DNA of 37,608 bases, taken from the NCBI GenBank assembly GCA_013694595.1, contig JACDCC010000301.1, forward strand, positions 1-37,608, given 5' to 3'. Below, piece by piece: positions 1,989 to 18,865 of the stretch. The notes beneath the pieces are model-generated. The model saw only the letters and a list, made by a program, of their open reading frames with translations, was not told the DNA's origin and did no database searches. The translations under genes and the position numbers were made by a program. Within the stretch, counting starts at the first letter, position 1. Every line of letters starts with the position of its first letter. This DNA is from Chthoniobacterales bacterium. Its GTDB lineage: Bacteria > Verrucomicrobiota > Verrucomicrobiia > Chthoniobacterales > UBA10450.

Positions 1989-4900
1989 TCAGGTGTGCAA
2001 CACCGCTTCCTCGTGAGGTGTTACAGGAAAGTCGTGCGTGGCAGTGCGGGTTGAGGAGGAGATGGATCGTTCGGCACTTGCGCGTCCGAATCGCCAAAAG
2101 ACAAGCGGCGTGACAATAAAATCGAGCAGTGTGCTCGTGAAGATACCGCTGAAGATCACCACCGCGACCGGGTGCAGGATTTCGCGGCCCGGTTCGTCGG
2201 CGGCGATGATTAATGGAATCAGCGCGAGACCGGCGGTGAGCGCGGTCATCAGCACCGGCACGAGTCGTTCCTGAGTGCCGCGCACAACCATCTCCTTGGT
2301 GAATTTCTCGCCCTCTTCACGCATGAGGTGCAGATAGTGCGAAATCATCATGATGCCGTTGCGCGATGCGATGCCCGCGAGCGTAATGAAGCCGACCATC
2401 GTGGCGATCGACATCGTGCCGCCCATCCACCAGACACCGGCGATGGAACCGATCACCGCCATGGGAATGTTCAACATGATCTGCACGGCGAACATCGCGC
2501 TTTTGAAATGCGCGTAGAGCACCACGAACACCCCAAGCAGCGAGATCACGCTCAGGATCGCGATCAACTTTGACGCCGATGCCTGGCTCTCGAATTGTCC
2601 GCCGTACGTGACGTAGTAGCCGGGTGGAAGCGCAAGTTTGTCAGAGATTTGCTGCTGCAATTCCTGCACCGCTCCCACGAGATCGCGACCGGAGACATTC
2701 GCCGCGATGTAGATGCGGCGCTGCACGCCCTCGCGGTTGATCTGGTTCGGACCCTTCGCTTCCTGCACCGTCGCCAGCTGACTCAGCGGGAGCACGACAT
2801 TGGTTTCGGTATCGACCGGAATCGCGCGGATCGCATCTGCGTCGTTCCGCGCCTCGTCCGTCAGGCGCAACACCACGTCAAACGTGCGGCTTCCTTCCAG
2901 GATCTGCGACACCGTCCGTCCCTGCATCGCGAGCTCCGCATAATCGGCCACTTCGCCGACCATCACTCCGTGCCGTCGAGCCTGGTCGCGGTCGATGTTG
3001 ACGTGCAGCTGCGGGATCATCACGAGGCGTTCGGCGAAGATATCGACCATGCCGGGAATGGTCTTCATGAGCTCCTCAACCTCACCGGCTTTTTGACGCA
3101 GGATGTTGAGATCCTGACCGAAAATCTTGACCGCGATCTGAGCGCGAACACCGGAGAGCAAATGATCGATGCGATGCGAAATTGGCTGGCCGAGGCTGAT
3201 GGTGATGCCCGGGATTTGATCGAGGCGCCGGCGGATGTCGTTGAGAATTTCCTCACGATCGCGTTCCGAATGGCGCAGCTCGGCGTCGATCTCGGAGTAG
3301 TGCACGCCCTCGGCGTGCTCATCGAGCTCTGCGCGTCCCGTCCGGCGGCCGACTTTTTTCACTTCCGGCACCTGCATGACGATGCGCTCAGCGAGCGAGG
3401 CGATGCGGTTCGACTCGGTGAGCGATGTGCTCGGCGGCACAAACACATTGATCGTGAGGCTGCCTTCATTGAATGGCGGCAGGAATTCCCGGCCGAAAAA
3501 AGGCACGGTCGCGAGCGCACCGAGGACCACGAGCGCGAAGGTGACGAGCACGACATTTGATCTTGGAAACCCCCACGCGAGCAGGCGCGCGACGAGGGTC
3601 TTCACGCCCCGCACCAGGGCGGAATCCTTCGCGTTCTTCATCCGCTTCATCTTCGGCAGGAGGTAGGAACAAAGCGCCGGCGTCACCGTCAGGGACACAA
3701 ACAACGACGCGATAATGCTGGTGATGTAGGCGATGCCGAGCGGCGCGAAGATGCGCCCTTCGATGCCGCCAAGCGCAAACAGCGGCACAAACACCAGCAC
3801 GACGACCGCGGTCGCGATGACAATGGAATTGCGGACTTCACTCGAAGCGCGAAAGACGACTTCCAGCGCCGGCCGCGGGTTCGCGAGTTGACGGTTTTCG
3901 CGCAACCGGCGAAAGACGTTTTCGACGTCGACGATCGAGTCGTCGACGAGCTCACCGATTGCCACCGCGAGGCCGCCGAGCGTCATCGTATTGATCGAGA
4001 TCTTGAAGTACTGAAACACGAGCATCGTCACCAGCAGCGAGAGCGGGATGGCCGTGAGCGTGATGAATGTGGTGCGGATGTTGAGCAGAAACAGGAACAG
4101 GATAATGACGACGAAAATGGCGCCATCGCGCAGCGCGACTTCAATGTTGTGGATCGCATTCTGGATGAACGTGCTCTGGCGGAAAATTCCGCTGTGGATC
4201 TTCACCCCCTCCGGCAGACCCGCCTGCAGATTCTCCAGCTCCCGCTCGATCTGCGCCGTCAGCTCAGGGGTGTCTGCGCCGGGCTGCTTTTGAATCGAGA
4301 GGATGACGGCCGGCGCGCCGTCCACGCCTGCATCGCCGCGTTTCGCGAGCGGCCCGCCGAGGCGCACATCGGCGACCTGCCCGAGCGTCAACGCGGCGCC
4401 GTTCTCGCGCTTCACCGGGATCACTGAATTACGCAAGTCTTCGAGGCTGTTCACGCGCGCAAGGTTGCGGATCAGACCTTCGGTGTAAGTGCCGAGCAGA
4501 AACCCGCCCGTCGAATTCACGTTCGCGTTCTTCGCCGCTTCTTCGACATCGTGGAGCGAGACGTTGAAGTTCCGCAGTTTGAACGGGTCGACCAGGATCT
4601 GGTATTGCTTCAGCTCGCCCCCAATGACGGTGATCTGCGACAATCCCGGCACCGAAAGTAATCGCTGCCGGATTTCCCAGTCGGCGATCGTCCGCAGATC
4701 CATCGGCGTGACCTCCGGATTTTCGCTCGTTAGGCCGACGAGCATGATCTCGCCCATGATCGAGCTGATCGGCGCGAGGACCGGCTTCGCCGCGGGCGGG
4801 AGTTGTTCCGCCACCTGTTGCAGCCGTTCCGTGACGATCTGGCGCGCGACGTAGATGTCCTGCTCAAACCCGAACTCCACGAAGACGATGCTGAGTCCCA

Positions 4901-5436: not shown

Positions 5437-5685
5437 GTGAGCGCCGTCGAAGAGATCGAAGATGCGATCAGGAAATTGCCCGCCGACGAGCGCGCACGGC
5501 TTGCGGAATCACTCCCGAAGCTCATTCCTGAATTGGACGGCGACGCGTATTGGGAGGCGATCATTCGTGATCCACGCCCACGGCCTGCTCTGACGGCTCT
5601 GTTAAATGAAGTGGACGCTGCGTACCGCGAGAACCCGGAGCAGTTTCCTTTGCTGTCAGAAGAGGAATTCGACAAGCACGAGTGA
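5437..5685 (+). CDS. Orphan addiction-module antitoxin-like small acidic protein
   Basis: 82 aa MSAVEEIEDAIRKLPADERARLAESLPKLIPEL...; resembles the N-terminus of putative addiction-module component/antitoxin proteins; only plus-strand ORF within a minus-strand operon; no adjacent toxin ORF seen. Confidence 0.55.
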   Translation: MSAVEEIEDAIRKLPADERARLAESLPKLIPELDGDAYWEAIIRDPRPRPALTALLNEVDAAYRENPEQFPLLSEEEFDKHE

Positions 5686-17333: not shown

Positions 17334-18146
17334 TCACTGCCTGGCCGCGGAGGCGCGACGCTCCGCAATCCAGTCGCGGTAGGTGGTCGCGATGCGGCTC
17401 TCCGCCTGTGCCCGTGCGATGCGGCTGATTTGGCGCCAGATTGCGGGATGTTGAAGGTCCGGCGGATGAACGCCGAGGCGGAGCAGCGGAGCATCGGCCA
17501 GCAGGCGCCCGAGCGTCGCATTCCAGCAAAGGCTCGTCGCCCGGCGCCATGCTTTGCTGACGCTATAGACAAGGGAACGCGCGGAAACGGTGTCGCCCGT
17601 CCGAAGATCGCAAACCTTCGTCAGGCGGGTCGTGTATTCCATCTCGGCGTCGGCGGCGGCGCGTTCGCCCCCGGGCCCGAGTAACCAGGCGGGAGCGATA
17701 AAGCCGCGCGGCTTCAGACCTGCCGCCGCGAATTGATCCCGCGCCTTCACAATTCGGCGCAGCGCCTCGTCGTAGGCCAGGTCGAAGAACTCGCCTTCGC
17801 CGCGCGTGTACCAGCGCGTCCAGGCACGGGCGCGCCATCCTTCCTTCGCCAAGGGCGGCCGCTGGTGAAAATAGCCGTGGATAACGACCTCGTGTCCGGA
17901 GGCTTCAAGGTCGCGCAGCCAGCGGACAAAATCCGGATCCGCCATCGACTCGCCCGTGCGGCGGTAGTTCGGCACCACCAGCAGTGAGCATCGGTTGACG
18001 CCTCCGCGCGCCAGCTCGCTGAGGATCTTCTCCGCTGCGGGCCGCGTGGGTGGCGCCACGTCGTGGACGGAGACGATCAGCGGCTTCTTATCCTGCTCGG
18101 CGGCCGCGGCAAAGATCGGAAAGGAAGTCGCTGTAGCGCCGGTCAC
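17334..18146 (-). CDS. DUF2334-type polysaccharide deacetylase-like protein
   Basis: PLIVSVHDVAPPTRPAAEKILSELARGGVNRCSLLVVPNYR...ASGHEVVIHGYFHQ...; stop is 4 nt from the PHP-GT start. Confidence 0.85.
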   Translation of the reverse strand: MTGATATSFPIFAAAAEQDKKPLIVSVHDVAPPTRPAAEKILSELARGGVNRCSLLVVPNYRRTGESMADPDFVRWLRDLEASGHEVVIHGYFHQRPPLAKEGWRARAWTRWYTRGEGEFFDLAYDEALRRIVKARDQFAAAGLKPRGFIAPAWLLGPGGERAAADAEMEYTTRLTKVCDLRTGDTVSARSLVYSVSKAWRRATSLCWNATLGRLLADAPLLRLGVHPPDLQHPAIWRQISRIARAQAESRIATTYRDWIAERRASAARQ

Positions 18147-18194: not shown

Positions 18195-18395
18195 GCTTGA
18201 AGCGTGTCATGCACTTGGTAGCGGGCGCTCGCCTCGGCGATCCCATTGCGATGTAGGCCGTGGTCTCCTGACCCGGCGAGGTGTGAGGTGGCGACGCTCC
18301 ACGCGCTCGAAGCCGCGACATCCATCCCCCCGCCGCGTGAGGACACGCGGCCTACAACCTTGCCGCCTGAGTCCAAGTGCATGACACGCTCTAGC
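18195..18395. repeat. ~200-bp extragenic element bounded by a perfect 18-bp inverted repeat, with internal hairpins
   Basis: AGCGTGTCATGCACTTGG (18201-18218) and CCAAGTGCATGACACGCT (18373-18390); inner inverted pair GTAGGCCG (18253-18260)/CGGCCTAC (18348-18355); hairpins GGTC-TCCT-GACC (18262-18273) and CCGCGTG-AGGA-CACGCGG (18333-18350). Confidence 0.8.
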
Positions 18396-18801
18396 CGCGC
18401 GCCATGCGCAGGATCTCCTCGAATTCCGCTTTGCTCAACGGCTGAACCGACAAACGCGAGAGCCGCACAAGGGCGATCTCTTTCAGCTGCGGCTGCGCCT
18501 TGATTTCATCCAGCGTCACCGGCCGCGGCAACGCCTGCTTCGGGATCAGATCGACCGCGCTCCAGTCGCCTTCCTTGGCGCTCGGGTCGGGGTAAGCCGT
18601 GCGTGCGACCTCGGCGATACCGACCACAGCTTTGCTCGTCACGCTGTGGTAGAACAGCACCGCGTCGCCTGTTTGCATCGCGCGGAGGTTGTTGCGCGCG
18701 GTGAAATTGCGCACGCCGGTCCAGCTGGTGCGCCCGTCTTTCACGAAGTCGTCCCACGAGTAGGCGGACGGCTCCTGTTTCACGAGCCAGAACTTCTTCA
18801 T
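18391..18801 (-). CDS. EVE-domain protein
   Basis: MKKFWLVKQEPSAYSWDDFVKDGRTSWTGVRNFTARNNLRAMQTGDAVLFYHSVTSKAVVGIAEVARTAYPDP is typical EVE (PUA-like fold). Confidence 0.92.
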   Translation of the reverse strand: MKKFWLVKQEPSAYSWDDFVKDGRTSWTGVRNFTARNNLRAMQTGDAVLFYHSVTSKAVVGIAEVARTAYPDPSAKEGDWSAVDLIPKQALPRPVTLDEIKAQPQLKEIALVRLSRLSVQPLSKAEFEEILRMARG

Positions 18802-18865
18802 CCGGAAAGTAGTAGGCCGCGACGCGCGATTCGACAACCGCCGCCGTCTGTTGAACACTCGCGAG

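Follow-up and report, generated by a model that had tools for sequence, protein, structure and literature searches.

A REPIN nested within IS5-type terminal repeats at the stop codon of an EVE-domain gene in a Chthoniobacterales bacterium

The junction between an EVE-domain gene and a DUF2334 gene in a Chthoniobacterales bacterium contains a 192-bp element that we read as two nested mobile layers, an IS5-family MITE shell with a REPIN inside it. We assign this two-layer reading a probability of roughly 0.88. The element is genuine, is mobile judging by its descent, and is well accounted for. The first-pass annotation of the window, that is, the whole 37,608-nucleotide stretch of DNA analysed here, had described it as MITE-like or a composite REP element, and both halves of this description hold. 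IS5 MITEs and REPINs are each known; their near-obligate nesting is the new part.

Under the mechanism that we propose, the MITE, of the form TA-GAGCGTGTCATGCACTT...AAGTGCATGACACGCTC-TA, would depend for its movement on an IS5-family DDE transposase acting in trans, with insertion at YTAR and duplication of the TA, and the inner REPIN, a pair of GTAG REP hairpins, would be a substrate of a RAYT (Y1/HUH) transposase. The window copy would have entered the TA of the EVE stop codon, and the stop would have been remade from this TA and the first G of the terminal repeat; because the stop is rebuilt in this way, the insertion would be harmless to the gene. We infer from the sequences that IS5 and RAYT transposases perform these moves and that the composites travel as a unit via the IS5 route.

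The perfect 18-bp terminal inverted repeats that had been claimed for the element are present: AGCGTGTCATGCACTTGG occupies positions 18201-18218, and positions 18373-18390 are its perfect reverse complement. There are no other matches to the repeat in the window at up to three mismatches (shuffle mean, 0.03). The left terminal inverted repeat of the MITE (18201-18218, plus strand; consensus GAGCGTGTCATGCACTT) is preceded by the first repeat base at 18200, an A in the window copy and a G in the consensus. The right terminal inverted repeat (18373-18391, minus strand) extends to a C at 18391; read on the minus strand, this base is the first G of the repeat and also supplies the third position of the EVE stop. 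The left arm, between terminal repeat and REPIN, occupies 18219-18252, and the right arm 18356-18372. The REPIN itself, at 18253-18355, belongs to class A (GTAGGCCG) and consists of two inverted GTAG-REP hairpins, the first beginning GTAGGCCGTGGTCTCCTGACCCGGC (18253-18281, plus strand) and the second beginning GTAGGCCGCGTGTCCTCACGCGGC (18328-18355, minus strand); the nested inverted pair noticed earlier was found as GTAGGCCGTG at 18253-18262 and, inverted, GTAGGCCGCG at 18346-18355. Compared with dinucleotide shuffles, the element strand folds strongly as RNA (z = -6.0) and as DNA (z = -5.6). The element has no transposase gene of its own, and the open reading frames of 79-129 amino acids that cross the segment appear mechanical, with no support as genes found for them, in agreement with the earlier statement that no ORF explains it. 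Its placement between the two genes is likewise borne out by domain matches: the EVE-domain gene (18391-18834, minus strand; PF01878, 149 bits) has its stop codon at the insertion site, and the DUF2334 or polysaccharide-deacetylase-like gene (17334-18146, minus strand; PF10096) follows downstream of the element in the same orientation.

The terminal repeat is a multicopy sequence. Across the 413 contigs (3.38 Mb) of the element's own genome, the 16-base repeat core has 41 matches with two mismatches or fewer, 20 of them forward and 21 reverse, at unrelated sites, and the reversed-pattern control has none. At least 24 clear elements can be delineated, with flanks that are mostly YTAR or TA: nine, of 93-197 bp and YTAR-flanked, have both ends within two mismatches, and about 15 more have one clear end, the other being decayed or lost at a contig break. 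Matches on C57, C170, C257, C281 and C375 and a half element on C22 were excluded as solo ends or chance hits. Scanning public genomes for exact copies of TAGAGCGTGTCATGCACTT yielded 86 stretches from Chthoniobacterales, Spartobacteria, Lautropia, Lysobacter, Comamonadaceae and others. Across all loci, TA precedes 142 of 165 distinct ends, a figure inflated because the scan pattern itself included TA; of the 39 complete elements for which both flanks are available, 33 have TA on the left, 33 on the right and 28 on both sides, and 28/39 is the fairer figure. The target duplication that the first-pass annotation proposed to look for is supported by the TA on both sides of most complete elements. 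In the window copy, TA is present at 18392-18393 (target YTAR) and the expected site of its duplicate on the left, 18198-18199, reads TG, presumably a decayed TA.

The inner unit at 18253-18355 is a REPIN, and REPs of its class surround a RAYT gene on contig C371 of the same genome. On that contig, class A REPs form inverted pairs at 3467, 3597, 4206 and 4301 around a Y1_Tnp/RAYT frame that scores above the Pfam Y1_Tnp cut-off and reaches 79.7 bits with NF047646, against an NCBIfam cut-off of 80. The class A REPIN also occurs without MITE ends, for instance on C49 and at C291:8064. On C16, a class A unit is devoid of recognisable ends and its right flank resembles a MITE arm, so this unit could be a composite that has decayed. 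Another RAYT, on C194 (L203:1546-2151; NF047646, 87.9 bits), is flanked by its own, different REP class (GTAGGGCAAGCGCTCCCGCTTGCC / GTAGGGCAGGCATTCCTGCCTGC). Two further observations concern these contigs. The RAYT frame on C371 (L201:2641-4176, minus strand) continues stop-free through a REP pair into fdhD, forming an open frame of 512 amino acids with RAYT and FdhD domains, and about 7.5 kb of C291 (2882-10334) contain four class C REPINs, two of them MITE-enclosed, together with a free class A REPIN.

REP hairpins of three classes are carried by 23 of the 24 clear elements in the genome (in part on C378 and C401), a share that would drop to 23 of about 30 if the excluded solo or chance ends were counted. 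Class A composites were identified in the window and on C32, C285, C269, C300, C314 and C225 (C225b); class B (GTAGGGCGAGACTC) composites on C366, C225, C252, C378, C309, C345, C316 and C401; and class C (GTAGCCGGGG) composites on C242, C243, C215, C211, C62 and C150 and twice on C291 (C291 and C291b). By strict patterns, 8 of 12 class C loci and 6 of 38 class B loci (C378 and C401 being outside the latter figure) lie in the shell. The only MITE without a REPIN is a 93-bp element on C210; we do not use it as proof of a pre-insertion state because its right arm fits a deletion equally well. The arms between ends and REPIN fall into at least nine groups that carry three REPIN classes, and common arms recur at unrelated loci (C32/C285/C269/C300, C366/C225/C252 and C215/C211/C291). 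Because several arm groups have two to four members at unrelated loci, composites must have been copied whole; the sheer number of groups, which fast divergence of such short arms could inflate, suggests that joining occurred more than once. Taken together, the arms suggest that MITE and REPIN were joined repeatedly and that the resulting composites then moved as single units.

Nesting on this scale could also arise by targeting, with no hitch-hiking, if the RAYT steers REPINs into the MITE by preferring its hairpin or the flanking palindrome. We regard this as possible although doubtful. The distribution of three REPIN classes over at least nine arm lineages speaks for such a preference, and the nearest precedent points the same way: in Anabaena variabilis, GTAG-15 dimers regularly lie inside longer palindromes (De Nocera et al. 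2013, PMC3733652). That palindrome has TATA at its start and end, which would fit a MITE end, but the study did not link it to an IS, and REP-free target palindromes were not found. In our data, however, 32 of the 38 class B REPIN loci have no recognised terminal repeat and so lie outside MITEs, part of the composite count reflects unit transposition, given that several composites have common arms, and the C210 element is the one REPIN-free MITE available for comparison. The nesting may thus reflect either a preference of the RAYT for palindromes or mere amplification of a few joins along the IS5 route.

The same ends also bound elements of another kind, 265-272 bp in length with twin hairpins, in Proteobacteria (Lysobacteraceae, Comamonadaceae and Lautropia) and in two copies from Verrucomicrobium (L090:4512-4783, L091:3893-4164, L104:616-886, L127:7122-7390, L134:6409-6677, L114:3924-4199 and L136:2182-2456). 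The stem sequences of these seven elements all differ, whereas their fold and loop motifs are retained, and 57 of 89 consensus pairs are changed on both sides. Their cores have fold z-scores from -8.5 to -13.3, and the motifs AAGGCGC, GCAACGC, CCCnnnGGG, GCGTTGC and GCGCCTTG recur in mirrored order. When 18 element loci besides the window, among them six of these seven (L090, L091, L104, L114, L127 and L134), were compared with Rfam at the gathering score, the only matches were a tRNA and a TPP riboswitch, both outside the elements. Strong hairpins within the same ends in other phyla, built in seven cases on one plan with paired changes, raise the idea that the nested hairpins of the window element belong natively to the MITE and serve it, for instance as a structure for RNA processing or transposase binding, and that their likeness to a REPIN is secondary. 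This is unlikely, as the inner unit of the window element is found free and beside a RAYT gene in its own genome and three unrelated REP classes occupy the same shell. A REPIN within an IS5-family shell remains the preferred reading.

The identity of the shell follows from full-length elements with matching ends. On a related Verrucomicrobium contig (L185, the same as L113), these ends bound an 882-bp element whose broken frames code for an IS5-family transposase (PF13340, PF01609, NF033580), and they likewise bound IS5-family transposase elements of about 880 bp in Betaproteobacteria. Allofranklinella schreckenbergeri has an intact IS5 element (L233, 1419-2293) whose ends are of this kind; its 270-amino-acid transposase scores 204 bits with NF033580, for which the cut-off is 110. 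Plasmid copies of this transposase family in Xanthomonas, Burkholderia and Paraburkholderia, with ends of the TAGAGCGTGTTATGAACTT or TAGAGGGTGTTAGGCACTT type, are annotated as IS5 family transposases. Since the plasmid copies and the L185 and L233 elements all have matching ends, the outer layer, terminal repeats without a gene, is an ordinary IS5-family MITE shell, and its IS may belong to the TA-duplicating IS427-like group. A blastn-level search of plasmids recovered nothing resembling the window element or the Acidovorax element. No intact helper IS was found among the assembled contigs of the genome itself. Both of its ends are nevertheless there, at 84-88% identity, on C222 and C228, each of which breaks off some 120 bases into the IS, as expected when a multicopy IS disrupts assembly. 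DUF4096 transposases that did assemble, on C5, C1 and C22, were rejected as helpers because matching ends are absent around them, and on C22 the repeat points away from the transposase.

TA duplication at CTAG is typical of the IS630/Tc1 family too, and with its TA flanks and CTAG-like target the element could in principle be an IS630/Tc1-type MITE. We consider this very improbable: the transposases found within matching ends belong to the IS5 family by all three domain models, and the sole DDE_3/IS630 match in the genome, a single fragment on C382 that was considered as a helper, is unlinked to these ends.

The EVE stop codon appears to have been the site of insertion. The gene order EVE-DUF2334 is kept in relatives, and the repeat is absent from this junction in all seven examined (G001-G005, G011 and G012), relatives of 65-79% identity; at the level of the junction, the empty sites sought by the first-pass annotation are thus present. 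The contrary possibility, a single-copy sequence conserved at an orthologous position, failed when looked at, the element being multicopy and absent from the relatives. The EVE protein of G003 ends at the same residue count with TAA; in the window, the stop at 18391-18393 (minus strand) is TAG, made up of the flanking TA at 18392-18393 and the first repeat G at 18391, so that the right arm indeed abuts the stop as had been reported. This adjacency is an instance of a general pattern. A frame of at least 100 codons ends exactly at TA|G in 25 of the 39 complete elements, compared with 99 of 323 control YTAR sites (31%) at the same loci (odds ratio 4.0, p = 6e-5), the sites being partly non-independent. 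Target choice and selection against damage would each yield this excess. Among the open literature, we found no paper on an IS5 MITE associated with a stop codon.

The position between two same-strand genes and the strong fold might also suit an immobile structured regulatory RNA or terminator of an EVE-DUF2334 operon, but this is hardly credible for a sequence that is missing from the same junction in relatives and occurs at many unrelated genome locations, and the window element has no Rfam family at the gathering score and no terminator-like site that we could find. As a separate observation, the EVE-DUF2334 junction of G005 (C128, L214) contains an unrelated palindrome, CGGCGACA...TGTCGCCG, which suggests that this site may tolerate repeated insertions.

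NEMIS/Correia elements are TA-flanked bacterial MITEs. Like these and the Nezha MITEs, the elements described here are small, IS-derived or TA-flanked, intergenic and foldable; unlike in them, the ends are of another sequence, and we know of no NEMIS/Correia or Nezha element that carries a REPIN. With IS5-family MITEs in general they have in common the terminal repeats of full-length IS5 elements, the YTAR/TA target, the lack of a gene and the high copy number, but here nearly every copy encloses a further mobile palindrome distinct from the MITE, and interiors are wholly different between lineages. The inner units match REPINs and GTAG-REP dimers in their inverted GTAG hairpins of about 100 bp, their multiple copies and the presence of REPs of their own class on both sides of a RAYT gene (Bertels and Rainey 2011, PMC3116915; De Nocera et al. 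2013, PMC3733652). They depart from known REPINs in being enclosed by IS5-type terminal repeats and apparently copied along with them. Our search of open papers found no description of three REPIN classes paired almost obligately with a single IS5-type shell, nor did we find a paper reporting the terminal repeat sequence.

These results bear on how REPINs spread and on whether each move needs a RAYT. We tentatively suggest, as a generalization we hold to be less than even in likelihood, that the IS5-type ends are a general shell that repeatedly captures self-spreading palindromes, REPINs in Verrucomicrobia and twin-hairpins in Proteobacteria and some Verrucomicrobia, and whose insertion at stop codons is nearly cost-free. 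If so, REPINs in Verrucomicrobia would gain a second way to move, the twin-hairpin unit would keep its fold and not its sequence across phyla, and spread would cost the host almost nothing with the repeat's own G restoring the stop. The stop-codon rule explains why the elements adjoin gene ends with little harm. With 23 of 24 MITEs bearing a REPIN and free REPINs of the same classes in one genome, the two routes can be compared directly.

An Anaerolineae contig (L094) has related ends at 5456-5630 and 7863. On either side of the 175-bp element at the former position, an open frame terminates at the junction. The repeat family may extend to Chloroflexota, or the Anaerolineae bin may be mixed.
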